From assembly GCA_018267725.1 (NCBI GenBank), contig JAFDXY010000009.1, positions 434,001-498,000 on the forward strand: a stretch of 64,000 bases of DNA, written 5' to 3'. Source of the stretch: Bacteroidota bacterium. Its GTDB lineage: Bacteria > Bacteroidota > Bacteroidia > Chitinophagales > Chitinophagaceae. Below, one piece after another: positions 22,196 through 61,251 of the stretch (position 1 is its first letter; each line of letters opens with the position of its first letter). The notes under the pieces are model-generated. The model saw only the letters and a list, made by a program, of their open reading frames with translations, was not told where the DNA came from and did no database searches. The position numbers and the translations under genes are program-made.

Positions 22196-23770
22196 ATGAA
22201 AAATATTATTCTATCATCTTTCTTCTATCTCCTATCTTCTGTTTTACATGCACAACAAGCAGATATTTTAATTAAAAACGGAAAAATTTTAAACGGCAGC
22301 GGTAACAGTTGGTTTTATGGAGATATTGCCATTAAAGGAGAAAAAATTATTGCCATTGGGCATTTGAATAATTATACTTCTTCCAAAACTATTGATGCTA
22401 CGGGTTTAATAGTTGCTCCGGGTTTTATTGATGTACACACACATATTGAAGGCGATGAAAAGAAAAATCCAACGGCAGATAATTTTATTTACGATGGTGT
22501 TACAACCGTTATTACAGGCAATTGTGGCTCATCAGAAGTTGATTTAAAAAAATATTTTTCTTTTATTGATAGTCTTCATCTTTCTATAAACGTTGCTTCT
22601 TTAATTGGCCATAACGATGTTAGAAAAGCCGTAATGGGCAGAGCTATGAGAGACCCCAATGAAAATGAAATGAAAAAAATGGAAGCCTTAGTAGAGCAAG
22701 CCATGAAAGATGGTGCAGTAGGCTTTAGTACGGGTTTAATCTATATTCCCGGTACATACAGCAAAACCGATGAAGTAATTAATTTGGCAAAAGCTGCTGC
22801 AAAATATCATGGCGTTTATGCAAGCCACATGCGAGATGAAGGCGACAGCGTTACACAAGCTATTGATGAAGCTATTAATATAGGAAGGCAAGCACGTATG
22901 CCTGTTGAAATTTCTCATTTTAAATTAAGTGGCCAACAAAATTGGGGAAGAAGTAAAGAAACAATTCCTATGATTATTAAAGCAAGAGAAGAAGGATTAG
23001 ATGTTACTATTGATCAATATCCTTACACCGCAAGTTCAACATCATTAAGTACACTTTTACCCGATTGGATTTTAGCAGACTCACAAGATTCTATTGTTGC
23101 ACGTTTAAACAGAAAAGAAGTACAAAAAGAAGTTACTACTTATTTGCTGGCAAAATTGAAAAAAAGAAAACTAAAACATTTTAGCTATCCGGTAGTTGCT
23201 TATTTTAAATACGATACAACATTAAACGGAAAAAGTATTGAAGAAGTAAATACAATGAAAGGGAGAAAACACAATGCCAAAGAAGAAATTATTACCATAA
23301 TGGAAATGATGAAACAAGGCGGTGCAAGCATGGTTTTTCATGGCATGAGTGAAGAAGATATAAAAAACATTATGCAATATCCTTATAATATGTTTGCTTG
23401 CGATGCAAGCATTAGAGTTTATGGAGAAGGCAATCCACACCCACGCGGATACGGCACCAATGCACGTGTATTAAGCAAATATGTAAGAGACGAAAAAGTA
23501 ATTTCATTAGAAGAAGCCATTAGAAGAATGACCAGTTTACCGGCACAAAAATTTCAGTTAAAAGATAGAGGTTTATTACAACAAGGTTTTGCTGCCGATA
23601 TTGTTATTTTTAATGCAGCCGAAGTAAAAGATAATGCTACTTACCAAAAACCACATCAATATTCAACAGGTTTTAAATATGTAATTGTAAACGGAAAAAT
23701 TACAATTGATGAAAGCAAACACAACGGAACAAGAAATGGAAAAGTATTAAGATTAACAGATTATCAATAA
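22196..23770 (+). CDS. N-acyl-D-amino-acid deacylase family amidohydrolase (exported)
   Basis: A 524-residue protein. The signal peptide ends at SSVLHAQ near residue 20. The amidohydrolase core begins ADILIKNGKILNGSGNSWFYGDIAIKGEKI. DVHTHIEGDE holds the HxH metal pair, VTTVITGNCGSS is the D-aminoacylase-type Cys segment, and YASHMRDEGDSV and VEISHFKLSG carry further metal His. The C-terminal small beta domain ends FKYVIVNGKITID. It would release D-amino acids or related compounds from N-acyl forms in the periplasm. It heads a group of four rightward hydrolase genes. The hydrophobic core of its signal is encoded by a heptamer array. Confidence 0.88.
   Translation: MKNIILSSFFYLLSSVLHAQQADILIKNGKILNGSGNSWFYGDIAIKGEKIIAIGHLNNYTSSKTIDATGLIVAPGFIDVHTHIEGDEKKNPTADNFIYDGVTTVITGNCGSSEVDLKKYFSFIDSLHLSINVASLIGHNDVRKAVMGRAMRDPNENEMKKMEALVEQAMKDGAVGFSTGLIYIPGTYSKTDEVINLAKAAAKYHGVYASHMRDEGDSVTQAIDEAINIGRQARMPVEISHFKLSGQQNWGRSKETIPMIIKAREEGLDVTIDQYPYTASSTSLSTLLPDWILADSQDSIVARLNRKEVQKEVTTYLLAKLKKRKLKHFSYPVVAYFKYDTTLNGKSIEEVNTMKGRKHNAKEEIITIMEMMKQGGASMVFHGMSEEDIKNIMQYPYNMFACDASIRVYGEGNPHPRGYGTNARVLSKYVRDEKVISLEEAIRRMTSLPAQKFQLKDRGLLQQGFAADIVIFNAAEVKDNATYQKPHQYSTGFKYVIVNGKITIDESKHNGTRNGKVLRLTDYQ
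22209..22243 (+). repeat. Heptamer array in the signal-peptide region of the D-aminoacylase gene
   Basis: Five 7-mers, TTCTATC, ATCTTTC, TTCTATC, TCCTATC, TTCTGTT, starting 13 bases after the A of the start codon. The unit TTCTATC repeated gives the peptide cycle FYLLSSI in any frame. Here it encodes about residues 5-16. Confidence 0.75.
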
Positions 23771-23781
23771 ATAAAAAATAT

Positions 23782-23865
23782 CGTCATTCTGAACTTGCCT
23801 GCCTACGGCAGACGAAGTGAAGAATCTGATTAATAAAATAACAGATATTTCACCTCATTCAACAT
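23782..23865. repeat. Dispersed intergenic repeat (GTCATTCTGA type)
   Basis: CGTCATTCTGAAC at the left and a decayed right arm with AGATATTTCACC...CATTCAACAT, related to the units at 9009, 29148 and 34353. An inner hairpin CTGCC-TAC-GGCAG sits in the left half. It fills the gap between two hydrolase genes. Confidence 0.7.
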
Positions 23866-23885
23866 AAAGGCATAAATCAAACATT

Positions 23886-25400
23886 ATGAAAAAAACAATA
23901 CTAACTTCTATCTTCTTCCTTCTAACTTCTTTTTTAATTGCACAAAGCACTCCAACATTTGTAAAAGATAGTTTAGATAATTATGTAACCAATGCTTTAC
24001 AACAATGGCAAATACCCGGTGCAGCAGTTTGTATTATTAAAGATGGGAAAATAGTAACAATGAAAGGTTATGGCGTAAGAGAATTAGGCGGCAACGATAA
24101 AGTAGATGAAAATACTTTGTTTATGATTGGCTCTAACACCAAAGCCTTTACAGCAACGCTTTTAGCAACATTGGCAGCAGAAAAAAAATTATCGTTAGAT
24201 GATAAAGCCATTAAATGGTTGCCCGAATTTAAAATGAAAGATGAATGGGTTACTAAAGAAGTTACAGTTAGAGATTTATTATGCCATCGTTTAGGAATGA
24301 TGACTTTTCAAGGAGATTTTATGTTCTTCGATACCAAACTTTCTTCATCAGATATTCTACAAAAATTTTCACGCTTAACACCCGTATATAGTTTTCGTTC
24401 AACTTGGGGTTATACCAACACTGCATTTCTTGCAGGCGGTTTAATTGCAGGCAATGCAGCAAACTCAACTTGGCAAGATTTAATAAGAACAAAAATTTTT
24501 CAGCCATTAGGTATGAATAGAAGTTTAGCATTATCTGCCGAAATAGTACATGCAACCAATAAAGCAACTGCACATACTATGCAAGGCACTACACTTATAA
24601 AAACACCTTACGGTGCATTAGATAATATTGCACCCGCAGGTTCAATAAGTTCTTCTGTAAATGATTTAAGCAAATGGGTAACCATGTTGTTAAACAATGG
24701 CAAGTATGATGGTAAACAAATTATTCCGTTCAGTGCTATTCAACAAACAAGATTTCCAAATTCAATAATAGGTAACGGAAATGTTTTATTTAATTCAGGG
24801 CATTTTATGTTATACGGGTTAGGTTGGATGTTGGAAGAATATGGTGGGAAAAAAATTGTATCGCATACAGGTGGTGTAAACGGTTTTGTTACAAGCGTTA
24901 CTTTAATTCCGGAAGATAATTTAGGCATTATTGTTTTAACCAATACCGATGCTAATAATTTTTATGAAGCATTAAAGTGGGAAATTATGGATGCGTATTT
25001 TAATTATCCTTATCGTAATTATAGTAAAATTTATTTTAATGCGTTTGAAAAAGAATTACAAGCAGAACAAAATTCAATTCAGAAAAAAAGAGATACTGTT
25101 GCTATGCATTTACCTGTTGCATTAGCTTTAGAAAAATTTACAGGCGAGTATGAAAATGACCCTTACGGCACCTTAAAAATTGTAAAAGAAGGAGATCGTT
25201 TAAAAGTTTTATTTCAACATCATACAATGACTGGTAAGCTGGAAGCCTTATCTGGCAATCGTTTCCTTTGTACTTATAGCAATCCTATTTGGGGCGTTAT
25301 GGAAATTCCTTTTACAATAGAAAATAATCAAGTACAATCTGTAACCATAAAAGTGGCAGGCTCTGTAGATTATATGCCTTACGAGTTTAAAAAGAAATAA
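23886..25400 (+). CDS. Serine hydrolase, beta-lactamase class C family, with C-terminal DUF3471-type domain
   Basis: 504 residues with a signal peptide ending FLIAQ. The catalytic SxxK is Ser83-Asn-Thr-Lys86 in FMIGSNTKAFTATL. YTNTAFLAGG contains the YxN-type Tyr, and SHTGGVNGF is the third active-site motif. The penicillin-binding-like domain runs to about residue 365. A separate C-terminal lipocalin-like part (FTGEYENDPYGTLKIVKEGD) matches the DUF3471 layout. It is a periplasmic D-Ala-peptidase- or esterase-like enzyme; substrate unknown. The hydrophobic core of its signal shares DNA repeats with the flanking genes. Confidence 0.9.
   Translation: MKKTILTSIFFLLTSFLIAQSTPTFVKDSLDNYVTNALQQWQIPGAAVCIIKDGKIVTMKGYGVRELGGNDKVDENTLFMIGSNTKAFTATLLATLAAEKKLSLDDKAIKWLPEFKMKDEWVTKEVTVRDLLCHRLGMMTFQGDFMFFDTKLSSSDILQKFSRLTPVYSFRSTWGYTNTAFLAGGLIAGNAANSTWQDLIRTKIFQPLGMNRSLALSAEIVHATNKATAHTMQGTTLIKTPYGALDNIAPAGSISSSVNDLSKWVTMLLNNGKYDGKQIIPFSAIQQTRFPNSIIGNGNVLFNSGHFMLYGLGWMLEEYGGKKIVSHTGGVNGFVTSVTLIPEDNLGIIVLTNTDANNFYEALKWEIMDAYFNYPYRNYSKIYFNAFEKELQAEQNSIQKKRDTVAMHLPVALALEKFTGEYENDPYGTLKIVKEGDRLKVLFQHHTMTGKLEALSGNRFLCTYSNPIWGVMEIPFTIENNQVQSVTIKVAGSVDYMPYEFKKK
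23899..23933 (+). repeat. Heptamer array in the signal-peptide region of the beta-lactamase family gene
   Basis: Five 7-mers, TACTAAC, TTCTATC, TTCTTCC, TTCTAAC, TTCTTTT, starting exactly 13 bases after the A of the start codon, as in the genes at 22196 and 25409. Confidence 0.78.
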
Positions 25401-25408
25401 TATATATT

Positions 25409-26590
25409 ATGAAAAAAATTATTCTAACTTCTATCTCCTATCTTCTTGTTTCTTTTTTAATTGCACAAAATTTTCAACGCATACATAACAAAGCAATTTT
25501 AGTAGATACACATAATGATATTTTAGAGCAATGTATTGGCAAACATTTAAGTATTGATGATGATTTAAAAGGAAAAACACAAACCGATTTAATGCGTTTA
25601 AAACAAGGCGGTGTTAGTGTTCAACTATTTTCTGTATGGTGTGATGGGCACGAAAAAAAACCATATCAATTAGCAAATATTGAAATGGATACATTAGATG
25701 CCGTTATAAGTAGAAACTTAAACAGCATTGTAAAAGTTGCTAATTATAAAGCATTATTAAAAGCAGTTAAACAACATAAAATTGCTGCAATGTTTGGTGT
25801 AGAAGGCGGCCACATGATAGAAGATGATTTAACCAAATTAGAAACATTGTATAAAAGAGGTGCAAGATATCTTACACTTACATGGAACAACTCTACAAGC
25901 TGGGCTACCAGTGCATTTGAAGAAACACACGATAGTATTTTAAAAGCAAAAAATCAACCCAAAGGCTTAAATGATTTTGGAAAACAAGTTGTAAAAAAAA
26001 TGAACGAATTAGGAATGTTGGTAGATATTTCTCATGTAGGCGAACAAACTTTTTGGGATGTTATTAATACAACCACTAAACCTGTAATTGCATCGCATAG
26101 TAGTGTGTATGCAATTTGCCCGGTATCAAGAAATTTAAAAGACGATCAAATAAAAGCAGTTGCAAAAAACGGTGGTGTTATTCAAGTAAATTTTTATTCT
26201 GGTTTTTTAGATAGCAGTTTTGAAAAACGCAGCAAATTGTTTGAAGCAAAACATAAAGTAGAAAAAGATTCATTAAGAAAAATAAATCCTGAGCCTTATT
26301 TCTTTCAAGAATATTTATTTAAAAAATATCCTGATGAAGTTAAAAGCCTTCGCCCACCTTTATCTTTATTAATTGAACATATAGATTATATTGTAAAATT
26401 AGTTGGTATAGATTATGTAGGTTTAGGTTCAGATTTTGATGGCATTAGTTCATCGCCACAACAATTAGATGATGTTACTTCTTATCCGTTAATTACAAAA
26501 GCCCTATTAGACAAGGGTTACAGCAAAAAAGATGTTTACAAAATTTTAGGCGGAAATTTTTTAAGAGTATTCAAAGCAAATGAGCAGTAG
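25409..26590 (+). CDS. Membrane dipeptidase family (M19) peptidase, exported
   Basis: 393 residues, starting 8 bases after the previous stop. The signal peptide ends VSFLIAQ. The metal site is visible in VDTHNDILEQC (His and Asp), GVEGGHMIED (bridging Glu), DISHVGEQTFWDV and IASHSSVYAICP (His pair), and GLGSDFDGI (Asp). Family members cleave dipeptides, including those with D-residues, using two zinc ions. With the D-aminoacylase and SxxK hydrolase upstream it would break down short, D-residue-containing peptides such as cell-wall fragments; this is inference. Length and motif order are normal. Confidence 0.93.
   Translation: MKKIILTSISYLLVSFLIAQNFQRIHNKAILVDTHNDILEQCIGKHLSIDDDLKGKTQTDLMRLKQGGVSVQLFSVWCDGHEKKPYQLANIEMDTLDAVISRNLNSIVKVANYKALLKAVKQHKIAAMFGVEGGHMIEDDLTKLETLYKRGARYLTLTWNNSTSWATSAFEETHDSILKAKNQPKGLNDFGKQVVKKMNELGMLVDISHVGEQTFWDVINTTTKPVIASHSSVYAICPVSRNLKDDQIKAVAKNGGVIQVNFYSGFLDSSFEKRSKLFEAKHKVEKDSLRKINPEPYFFQEYLFKKYPDEVKSLRPPLSLLIEHIDYIVKLVGIDYVGLGSDFDGISSSPQQLDDVTSYPLITKALLDKGYSKKDVYKILGGNFLRVFKANEQ
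25422..25456 (+). repeat. Heptamer array in the signal-peptide region of the dipeptidase gene
   Basis: Five 7-mers, TTCTAAC, TTCTATC, TCCTATC, TTCTTGT, TTCTTTT, starting 13 bases after the A of the start codon. The stretch that follows, TTAATTGCACAAA, is identical to that in the gene at 23886. Confidence 0.8.
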
Positions 26591-27758: not shown

Positions 27759-29099
27759 TTAAGCTAATAATTTTTCAATGGCTTGATGAACTTTTTCAAA
27801 ATTAAACGAAGCAATTACTTCATTCATCATCTGCTGAATTTTATCGTTGCATAAATTACCAATTGTTCCTTCGTGTGTATGATTTATTTGTGTAGAATAA
27901 TTAAACTTGCCTGCTTCAATTTCTAAACCAACTTTTTTATAAGCATCTCTAAAAGGCATTCCTTGTAAAACTAATTTATTTACTTCTTCTACACTAAATG
28001 CATATTTATATTTTTCGTTATTCATAATATTTTCTTTTACAGAAATATTAGCCAACATTAAAGTTGCCATTTCAATACAACTGTTTAAAGTTTCAAATGC
28101 AGGAAACAAATGTTCTTTTAATAATTGCAAATCTCTATGATAACCACTTGGCAAATTAGTAGTCATAATAGTTATTTCATTAGGCAATGCTTTTATTCTG
28201 TTACAATGGCTTCTTATTAATTCAAAAACATCGGGGTTTTTTTTATGAGGCATAATGCTGCTGCCTGTTGTAAGTTCTGTAGGAAAAGAAACAAAATCAA
28301 AATTCTGATTTAAGTACAAACATATATCCATACTTAATTTTGCTAATGTATCTGCAACGTTTGCTAATGCTTGTGCCACAACTCTTTCAGCTTTACCACG
28401 CCCCATTTGTGCATACACAACATTATAATTCAAATTTGCAAAACCCAATAATTCTGTAGTTAATGTTCTGTTTATTGGAAATGAAGAACCATAACCTGCT
28501 GCACTGCCTAAAGGATTTTTATTTACAATTTTATATGCAGCTTGTAAAGTTGTAACATCATCTACCAAACTTTCTGCATACGCACCAAACCATAAACCAA
28601 ATGATGATGGCATGGCTAATTGCAAATGCGTATACCCCGGTAATAAATTGTTTTTATATTTTTCACTTTGATTAATAAGTAATTGAAAAAAAGGTTGAAT
28701 ATTATTTACTAATTTTTCTAATTCGTTTCTTAAAAATAATTTTATATCAACCAATACTTGATCATTACGGCTTCTTGCAGAGTGAATTTTTTTTCCGGTG
28801 TCTCCTAATTTTTCAGTTAATAAAAATTCTATTTGTGAATGAACATCTTCAACATTAGGATGAATGGTGAATGGTGAATGGTGAGTGGGTTGTGTAGTTT
28901 TATAAATCTCCTTTAGTTCTATTAATAAAGTATTTTTTTCTTCATTGGTTAGTAACCCAATGGTAGCAAGCATTGTAGCGTGTGCTATGTTTCCCAACAC
29001 ATCAAAAGGAGCAAGTAGCAAATCCATTTCACGGTCTTTACCAACCGTAAAATTTTCTACTGTTTTATTTACATCAATATCTTTTTGCCAAAGCTTCAT
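27759..29099 (-). CDS. argH: Argininosuccinate lyase
   Basis: 446 residues of the fumarase/aspartase superfamily. SARSRNDQVLVDIKLFLRNE and GYTHLQLAMPSSFGLWFGAY are ArgH motifs, and the signature loop is TGSSIMPHKKNPDVFELIR (catalytic Ser). It splits argininosuccinate into arginine and fumarate, the last step of the operon's pathway. Around residues 70-81 there is an extra TQPTHHSPFTIHP segment just before VEDVHSQIEF. It is encoded by a heptamer array (28861-28888) and is missing from ArgH proteins I know. It lies in the N-terminal part, away from the catalytic loop. The last gene of the leftward arginine operon. Confidence 0.95.
   Translation of the reverse strand: MKLWQKDIDVNKTVENFTVGKDREMDLLLAPFDVLGNIAHATMLATIGLLTNEEKNTLLIELKEIYKTTQPTHHSPFTIHPNVEDVHSQIEFLLTEKLGDTGKKIHSARSRNDQVLVDIKLFLRNELEKLVNNIQPFFQLLINQSEKYKNNLLPGYTHLQLAMPSSFGLWFGAYAESLVDDVTTLQAAYKIVNKNPLGSAAGYGSSFPINRTLTTELLGFANLNYNVVYAQMGRGKAERVVAQALANVADTLAKLSMDICLYLNQNFDFVSFPTELTTGSSIMPHKKNPDVFELIRSHCNRIKALPNEITIMTTNLPSGYHRDLQLLKEHLFPAFETLNSCIEMATLMLANISVKENIMNNEKYKYAFSVEEVNKLVLQGMPFRDAYKKVGLEIEAGKFNYSTQINHTHEGTIGNLCNDKIQQMMNEVIASFNFEKVHQAIEKLLA
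28861..28888 (-). repeat. Heptamer array inside argH
   Basis: Plus-strand units TGAATGG, TGAATGG, TGAATGG, TGAGTGG; in the coding direction CCATTCA-type units. The array encodes HHSPFTIH-like residues. The same unit, in the same reading phase, occurs in the NadR-like gene at 60915-60942. Confidence 0.85.
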
Positions 29100-34416: not shown

Positions 34417-35412
34417 TTAAAAATAATTTGCTTTAAGTTTTAAACCTTCATCTTCATCCAATCCAAACATTAAATTCATATTCTGCAAAGCCTGTCCCGA
34501 TGCACCTTTTAAAAGATTATCGGTTGCCGAATGAACAATAATTTTGTTTTCTTGTTTCTCAATATGAATTAAACATTTGTTGGTATTTACTACTTGCTTT
34601 AAATCTATCATTGTATTACTTACATGCGTAAATTTTGCATCTTTATAAAAGCTATTGTATAATTCTTTTACTTCTTCTAACGATAAAGAGGAATCAATTA
34701 CAGATGAAACATAAATACCTCTTGTAAAATCTCCTCGCCAAGGAACAAAATGTACGCCTCCATTTGAAGTTGGAAAATTATTTTGAAGCTGAAGTAATGA
34801 TTGATGTATTTCTTTTATATGTTGATGATTTAATGTTTTGTATGCAGAAATATTATTAGCACGCCAACTAAAATGCGATGTGGCATTTAAACTTTGCCCC
34901 GCACCCGTACTGCCTGTAATGCCCGTTGTATATACATCTCCAAGAATTCCTGCTTTTGCCAATGGCAATAAACCTAATTGAATACATGTTGCAAAACAAC
35001 CCGGATTAGCAATATTGTTTGCAGATTTAATTTGTGTTTTATTTAATTCAGGAAGGCCGTAAACAAACTGTCGACCGTCGACCGTCGACTGTGGGCTAAG
35101 TCTAAAATCTTGCGATAAATCAATAATTTTTATTTTTTCATTAATTGTATTTGCTTCTAAAAATTTGCGAGCATCTCCATGCCCAACACATAAAAACAAA
35201 ACAGCCTCATCCCAACCTTCTCCAAAGGAGAAGGAGTCTGAAAATTTTAAATCTGTTTCACCAATTAAATCTTTATGTACTTCATAAACAAATTTGTTTG
35301 CATTACTATTACTGTTTATAAAAGTAATTTTTACATACGGATGATTAATTAATAAACGAATTAATTCTCCGCCGGTATAACCTGCTCCACCTATAATGCC
35401 TGCTTTAATCAT
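34417..35412 (-). CDS. argC: N-acyl-gamma-glutamyl-phosphate reductase
   Basis: 331 residues. The NADP loop GIIGGAGYTGGELIRLL is at residues 5-21. IANPGCFATCIQLGLLPLA contains the catalytic Cys, and GITGSTGAGQSLNATSHFSWRANN and HRH-like HQHIKEIHQSL follow. It reduces N-acyl-glutamyl phosphate to the semialdehyde. Two stretches look inserted: residues 59-70 (DSFSFGEGWDEA), encoded by a hairpin repeat, and residues 107-115 (PQSTVDGRQ), encoded by a GTCGACC heptamer array in front of FVYGLPEL. The reading frame is intact across both. Confidence 0.93.
   Translation of the reverse strand: MIKAGIIGGAGYTGGELIRLLINHPYVKITFINSNSNANKFVYEVHKDLIGETDLKFSDSFSFGEGWDEAVLFLCVGHGDARKFLEANTINEKIKIIDLSQDFRLSPQSTVDGRQFVYGLPELNKTQIKSANNIANPGCFATCIQLGLLPLAKAGILGDVYTTGITGSTGAGQSLNATSHFSWRANNISAYKTLNHQHIKEIHQSLLQLQNNFPTSNGGVHFVPWRGDFTRGIYVSSVIDSSLSLEEVKELYNSFYKDAKFTHVSNTMIDLKQVVNTNKCLIHIEKQENKIIVHSATDNLLKGASGQALQNMNLMFGLDEDEGLKLKANYF
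35070..35089 (-). repeat. Heptamer array (GTCGACC) inside argC
   Basis: Three GTCGAC hexamers at 35070, 35077 and 35084, exactly 7 bases apart. The array is unusually GC-rich for this window. In the coding direction it gives STVDGR, part of the frame-independent peptide cycle GRRSTVD. Confidence 0.85.
35202..35240 (-). repeat. Hairpin-forming dispersed repeat inside argC
   Basis: CCTTCTCC (35216-35223), loop AAA, GGAGAAGG (35227-35234), preceded by CCTCATCCCAA. I recall this motif as a common intergenic repeat in Bacteroidota. Here it is inside the coding sequence and read as FSFGEGWDEA. Confidence 0.75.
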
Positions 35413-60682: not shown

Positions 60683-61251
60683 AAAAAATTGTTGTTATTG
60701 GCCCTGAAAGCACAGGCAAAAGTACCTTATGTACTTTGTTGGCACAACACTATAAAACACAATGCTGTCCTGAGTTTGCAAGAGAATACTTATTGCAGCA
60801 TGGAACAAATTATTCTTTTGAAGATTTATTAACCATAGCAAAAGGGCAATTAGAATTAGAAGAGAAGTATATTGAAAACGTAAATCGTGAATCGTTAATT
60901 GTGAATAATGTAAACTCACCACTCACCACTCACCATTCACCATTACTCTTCATTGACACCGATATGTATGTAATGAAAGTTTGGTGCGAGTATGTGTTTG
61001 GTAAATGCCATCAATTTATTTTAGATGAAATTGTAAAAAGAAAATACCATTTGTATTTGCTTTGCAATATTGATTTGCCTTGGGTTAAAGATGAATTAAG
61101 AGAATACCCAAACGAGCAACCACGCAAAGAATTATACAAAATTTATAAAGACATACTCATCAATCAAAACACACCATGGGTTGATATAAGTGGTAATTAT
61201 GAAGAAAGATTACAAAAAGCAATAGAAACAATAAATAATATTATTTTATAA
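60664..61251 (+). CDS. NadR-like nicotinamide riboside kinase (P-loop ATPase)
   Basis: 195 residues. The Walker A loop GPESTGKSTL is at residues 13-22. CCPEFAREYL and the Walker B-type LLFIDTDMYVMKVW follow, with LPWVKDELREYPNEQPRKELYK at the end, matching the ribosylnicotinamide kinase part of NadR. It would phosphorylate nicotinamide riboside brought in by PnuC. About residues 73-94 (NVNRESLIVNN then VNSPLTTHHSP) are an insertion encoded by two heptamer arrays, placed between a helix and Walker B. The frame is intact. It overlaps tag by 19 bases and the converging mtgA by 11. Confidence 0.88.
   Translation: MEQKEIKKIVVIGPESTGKSTLCTLLAQHYKTQCCPEFAREYLLQHGTNYSFEDLLTIAKGQLELEEKYIENVNRESLIVNNVNSPLTTHHSPLLFIDTDMYVMKVWCEYVFGKCHQFILDEIVKRKYHLYLLCNIDLPWVKDELREYPNEQPRKELYKIYKDILINQNTPWVDISGNYEERLQKAIETINNIIL
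60886..60906 (+). repeat. Heptamer array 1 inside the NadR-like gene
   Basis: CGTGAAT, CGTTAAT, TGTGAAT. Pure copies of the first unit would create a TGA stop in this frame; the mixed units avoid it, reading RESLIVN. Confidence 0.7.
60915..60942 (+). repeat. Heptamer array 2 inside the NadR-like gene
   Basis: CTCACCA, CTCACCA, CTCACCA, TTCACCA, encoding SPLTTHHSP. The unit and reading phase match the array in argH (28861-28888). Confidence 0.88.

Follow-up and report, generated by a model that had tools for sequence, protein, structure and literature searches.

Three adjacent genes on the forward strand of the window (the whole 64,000-nucleotide stretch analysed here, G000 C31:434001-498000, from a Chitinophagaceae genome of 2.68 Mb with 31% GC in the sampled DNA) encode enzymes that are predicted to be secreted and that belong to three different families, as an earlier note on this DNA had stated. 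The first (AMI, 22196..23770) is a D-aminoacylase-like amidohydrolase (Pfam Amidohydro_3, E=2.3e-27), the second (SER, 23886..25400) an S12-type serine hydrolase with a DUF3471 domain (Pfam Beta-lactamase, E=8.4e-68), and the third (DIP, 25409..26590) an M19 membrane dipeptidase (Pfam Peptidase_M19, E=1.2e-104). From the ATG at 22196, 23886 and 25409, respectively, each translation opens with a predicted signal peptide (SP) of 19 residues, with n, h and c regions and with Q following the inferred cleavage site: MKNIILSSFFYLLSSVLHA before Q in AMI (22196..22255), where the c region ends in A, MKKTILTSIFFLLTSFLIA before Q in SER (23886..23945), and MKKIILTSISYLLVSFLIA before Q in DIP (25409..25468). 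All three fit the layout of Sec SPs of the SPase I type, i.e., MKK or MKN, a 12-residue core, and xxA before Q, as judged by eye and with a simple rule; the SP detector was likewise a crude rule rather than a dedicated predictor. L occupies position -3 in each of them, a residue less usual there for SPase I. On this layout, the three segments are predicted to work as export signals. The differing Pfam assignments rule out a homologous common domain behind them. Between the AMI and SER genes lies a palindromic REP-like element (23795-23830, GAACTTGCCTGCCTACGGCAGACGAAGTGAAGAATCT), whose 17-base tail had no second site among the loci analysed.

The hydrophobic core of each SP is written in five degenerate heptamers. 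The array of AMI (22209..22243; detected by TRF at 22209-22240) is of the TTCTATC type and reads TTCTATC ATCTTTC TTCTATC TCCTATC TTCTGTT, whereas those of SER (23899..23933; TRF 23905-23931) and DIP (25422..25456) are of the TTCTAAC/TTCTATC type and read TACTAAC TTCTATC TTCTTCC TTCTAAC TTCTTTT and TTCTAAC TTCTATC TCCTATC TTCTTGT TTCTTTT. Their general form is T[TC]CTA[AT]C-like, with adjacent units about 75% alike (about 16-17/21), and 12 bases ending in CAA directly follow each of them. The offset of 13 bases, the five units and the coding of residues 5-16, all claimed earlier, were confirmed on the sequence, although the common offset is largely explained by SP geometry because five units make 35 bases, about the length of a 12-residue hydrophobic region. 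Because 3 does not divide 7, any heptamer array free of stops encodes the same seven-residue cycle in every frame. The claim that TTCTATC reads FYLLSSI in any frame is true of a pure array, whereas one phase of the TTCTAAC variant contains a stop; in the window arrays, this variant occurs only in harmless phases, with TAA out of frame.

The likeness between these starts is a property of the DNA. First, no other of 100 SP-like starts in 464 kb of the window's contig is as 7-periodic as those of AMI, SER and DIP. Second, synonymous resampling gives p_syn of 0.0012 for AMI and 0.0002 for both SER and DIP, so that the periodicity resides in the DNA rather than in the peptide; in the closest relative, G001, the periodicity of DIP and AMI falls short of significance once the peptide is allowed for (p 0.09 and 0.26). 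Third, nucleotides 10-60 of the three starts are identical at 38-42 of 51 positions, against a mean of 17.4 (sd 3.8) among 19,900 SP-start pairs sampled in G000, where the best unrelated pair reaches 35; no other non-homologous pair of this sample comes as close, and only one near-identical pair scores above them. This bears out the earlier statement that the DNA is alike from ATG to GCACAA, which is where the likeness begins and ends. Fourth, shared residues in G000 use identical codons in 11 of 13 cases (5.7 expected, p 0.002), and the rare codons ATC (5% of Ile in SPs) and CTA (7% of Leu) are used repeatedly, as the repeat requires. Across the SPs of four congeneric genomes (G000-G003), 10 of 555 reach at least 16/21 at period 7 and at most two do so at any other tested period, whereas 0.45 are expected from codon shuffling and 0.53 from synonymous resampling, and these two controls rule out chance or composition behind the SP arrays.

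These arrays belong to a broader pattern. In 1.95 Mb sampled from the same four genomes, we counted 38 period-7 arrays at the strict threshold of at least 18/21, below which the window arrays of AMI, SER and DIP fall, against no more than three in all for each of the other periods between 4 and 13. Period 7 is the sole tandem period clearly enriched in the window's genus. At 16/21 or more, array density per Mb is 290 in intergenic DNA, 353 in SPs and 36 in other coding sequence, with no comparable SP excess at control periods in the same count of G000-G003. SP DNA thus resembles intergenic DNA in array density and exceeds other coding DNA about tenfold. The expectation that arrays cluster in SPs holds at this level, with the qualification that the AMI/SER/DIP cluster in G000-G003 supplies six of the ten SP arrays and only four lie outside it, so that much of the strongest SP enrichment is due to one cluster. 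Outside it, the excess is clear at the lower threshold, with 20 SPs reaching at least 14/21 (expectation for the whole set: 4 by codon shuffling, 8 by synonymous resampling), and modest at the top. Unrelated SPs are also 7-periodic, with other units, such as TTTTGCC and CACTTTT. Most arrays of the genus lie within genes, in frame, in variable protein segments. Units vary between loci and share a loose consensus, NRTRAAW (3.10, against 2.60, sd 0.11, for shuffled units), which, coming from unrelated loci of G000-G003, hints at a sequence bias in the array-forming process.

Of 119 genomes of the family, 47 contain arrays of the form (TTCACNN)3, with up to about 280 matches each, and a reversed control gives zero or far fewer in most of them. 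Array formation is thus family-wide but uneven, and the idea that the heptamer process is confined to the window's genus can be discarded. Many Chitinophagaceae genomes lack the motif, whereas its matches rise to about 280 in others (G012, G122, G007, G025), and such patchiness suggests that the process was gained and lost repeatedly. TTCTATC itself is not a widespread element, as its exact 17-base match was found only in G002 among the 119 family genomes. TTCTAWC is nearly confined to AMI, SER and DIP: when 558 SPs are ranked by likeness to it, nine of the first ten come from these genes. TTCTAWC arrays also occur in the genus outside SPs (26/26 bases identical in G003 C11).

Genes beyond the cluster carry heptamer arrays at internal positions. 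In the window, in-frame ATTCACC heptamers on the minus strand (28857-28889) encode THHSPFTIHP in the argininosuccinate lyase ArgH, and the same place holds AAATTCA heptamers in G001. In argC (35066-35094, minus strand), in-frame GTCGACG heptamers correspond to unrelated sequence of equal length in the G001 ortholog, and in the ornithine carbamoyltransferase gene, G001 has AAATTCA heptamers where G000 has other sequence of equal length. One gene is longer than its G001 ortholog by exactly 21 nt, or three ATTCACG units. Two arrays with different units (60875-60899 and 60912-60946) lie in a single gene for a 195-residue P-loop protein, whose G003 ortholog has an AAATAGA heptamer nearby.

The gene order AMI-SER-DIP is kept in G001 (an SZAS-36 MAG, 92-94% identical to the window genes), in L214 (a CAIRTF MAG, 78-81%), and in a sister lineage (G028, L215 and L217, and L216 as far as its contig reaches). 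In the sister lineage, the SPs of the three enzymes are gene-specific and lack arrays: SP DNA of the same gene is 0.64-0.92 identical between genomes (SER and DIP), against 0.47-0.61 for different genes within one genome, the exception being the AMI SP of G028, at only 0.47-0.53 to those of L215 and L217. The prediction that relatives would lack the arrays is borne out there, but not within the window's genus, where SPs no longer follow the gene and orthologs carry other heptamers. Between G000 and L214, mature SER is 0.80 identical and its SP DNA 0.49; the L214 SER SP is nearest to the AMI SP of G003 (0.80) and stands at 0.49-0.53 to its own SER orthologs. Likewise, DIP of G002 is 0.85 identical to that of G028 in the mature protein and 0.51 in SP DNA, and its SP is of the genus style, of the WTTCWGC type, and nearest to that of L214 SER (0.75). 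The G002 DIP gene (L045, C18:464631-465779) is 82-85% identical to the sister lineage and 69-71% to its own genus; given this affinity, it may have been exchanged between lineages and then given a new SP. The AMI SPs of L214 and G002 share an unusual MKKN..xLR start and equal length, after which one of them has TTCTATC heptamers and the other heptamers of the TTTCAGC type; the G002 AMI SP holds a nearly pure, slippage-prone array. The earlier note had named the same peptide with diverged codons as the sign of conservation at the protein level. This is partly the case in G001, where the SPs of SER and DIP are alike at 11 of 17 residues and identical codons occur at 4 of these 11 (5.1 expected), but not in G000, where the codons coincide as described above. 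In G001, the peptide likeness persists with codons at chance level, which fits an array that decays while selection maintains the peptide.

We favour an explanation, with a probability of roughly 0.7, in which a lineage-wide process generates heptamers, hydrophobic arrays are kept as SP cores, the neighbours owe their shared flavour to common origin or local copying, and later decay blurs the repeats. It would involve 1) an ongoing mutational process that creates 7-base tandem arrays in weakly constrained DNA, namely intergenic regions, protein linkers and the hydrophobic regions of SPs, with slippage or repair synthesis as the putative source and a dedicated activity as another candidate; 2) arrays of the TTCTATC type giving a hydrophobic F/Y/L/L/S/S/I stretch, usable as an SP core wherever they landed, as the residue cycle is the same in all frames and only the net length counts; 3) replacement, in an ancestor shared by the window species with G001, of the SP cores of the three neighbouring enzymes by TTCTAWC arrays; 4) one of these arrays being most likely the source of the others by local copying, with the shared ends ATGAAAAAA and GCACAA as the limits of gene conversion; and 5) decay of the arrays by point mutation, with selection keeping a working SP. 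The earlier alternative, either a signal cassette copied between genes or repeats recruited as SPs, finds support on both sides, as the two are not mutually exclusive. The recruitment of repeat arrays as SP cores is well supported, by period 7 being the sole enriched tandem, by SP arrays at intergenic density and by array-free orthologs in the sister lineage. Copying between the three genes is likely, on indirect evidence: TTCTAWC is nearly confined to them, and the closest relative of an SP is often that of another gene. SPs that group with a different gene and not with their own orthologs, as gene conversion should leave them, are found in L214 SER and G002 DIP. We saw no conversion tract beyond the SP and no donor-recipient boundary, the likeness being confined to the segment from ATG to GCACAA; a tract bounded by shared ends would look alike, so that the missing flanks are compatible with copying. 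The rarity of TTCTAWC in other SPs and the grouping of SPs across genes make common origin and local copying the best explanation of the shared flavour. The three SPs might also have been recruited independently from a common vocabulary of units, in keeping with the TTCTAWC arrays outside SPs in G003 C11.

A more radical possibility, which we put forward tentatively, is that a lineage-specific, sequence-biased heptamer process (around NRTRAAW) rewrites weakly constrained DNA in place, mostly preserving its length, and repeatedly makes SPs and linkers de novo. It is doubtful that a ready-made signal cassette was instead duplicated among the three neighbours by recombination, its 7-base period being an incidental part of the history of the original. 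The standing of the three SPs as the closest non-homologous pairs, the confinement of the TTCTAWC flavour to the cluster, and an SP DNA identity across the three genes of G000 (0.75-0.82) that equals the identity of orthologs between G000 and G001 (0.69-0.84) all suit such a duplication, but the period recurs in unrelated SPs and genome-wide outside SPs, the orthologs of the three genes carry different heptamers, and the likeness stops exactly at the SP module, without a flanking tract. Convergence at the protein level, by which hydrophobic cores drawn from an AT-rich codon set come to look alike and periodic, is already disfavoured and improbable: SPs of Bacteroidota are stereotyped (MKK...AQ), and the periodicity of two G001 SPs is not significant beyond what their peptides impose, but synonymous resampling of the window genes, the excess of SP arrays over resampled expectation, the codon identity at shared residues and the repeated use of ATC and CTA all speak against it, and no such tail exists at other periods. 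That the arrays are contingency (phase-variation) elements, in which gain or loss of one unit frameshifts the enzyme, or translational-control sites bound by a regulator near the start codon, is very improbable: phase variation is frequent among bacterial simple sequence repeats (SSRs) close to N-termini (PMC4692102), a role as regulator sites has been proposed for TAACTGA heptamers near the start codons of Beggiatoaceae (PMC4679880), and the G002 AMI array is prone to slippage, but those of the window are too degenerate for ready slippage, units that differ among orthologs argue against a fixed binding site, and most arrays of the genus lie deep inside genes.

In prokaryotes, an excess of heptanucleotide repeats is already known, and polymerase-related slippage has been suggested for unit length 7 (Mrazek et al. 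2007, as relayed by PMC4679880 and PMC4692102). The arrays of the genus resemble the long heptanucleotide SSRs of that work, to the extent that it is relayed there, in the prominence of unit length 7 over other tandem repeats. They differ from them in forming peptide segments, predicted to be functional, and, whereas the relayed surveys find units in multiples of three likeliest inside genes, the short degenerate heptamers seen here are mostly intragenic and in frame. Long near-perfect arrays are prone to changes in copy number; the SP arrays of the window, at about 16-17/21, are not of this kind, and the G002 ortholog, at 19/21, comes nearer. TAACTGA direct repeats of marine Beggiatoaceae, Cyanobacteria and some Bacteroidetes are likewise dispersed through the genome, with some near start codons and, as their authors note, with survival mainly at protein ends (PMC4679880). 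They have, however, one fixed unit, mainly upstream of start codons, with stops in forward orientation, and are thought to be regulatory (PMC4679880), whereas the arrays of the genus have many units, are coding and replace SP cores; in the window, the units are TTCTAWC and lie within the coding region, not TAACTGA just upstream of the start. The GGGAATC and GGGGA(C/T)T heptamers of Xanthomonas and Nostoc are also dispersed, with at least four units, but they form G-quadruplexes and are under-represented in coding regions (PMC4692102). The known cases in Beggiatoaceae, Cyanobacteria and Xanthomonas are thus mainly intergenic and thought to be regulatory or quadruplex-forming (PMC4679880, PMC4692102). 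Low-complexity regions at protein termini also concentrate slippage-prone sequence at protein ends (PMC11285758), but they are amino-acid tracts, whereas the SPs of the genus are built on a 7-base unit that can be read in all frames. In the literature searched, outside which most subscription papers fall, we found no earlier report of heptamers as SP cores; within that literature, these SP cores are what is new here, bacterial heptanucleotide repeats being already known.

Our analysis points to a simple route by which export signals may be made and swapped, as a stop-free heptamer array near a start codon would provide a ready hydrophobic core. Arrays in the genus can be followed as they appear, change unit and decay at equivalent codons of orthologs, which also makes it a suitable system for asking why bacterial tandem repeats are dominated by heptamers. 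Should rewriting de novo prove true, export signals would be products of a DNA repeat process, not inherited modules.
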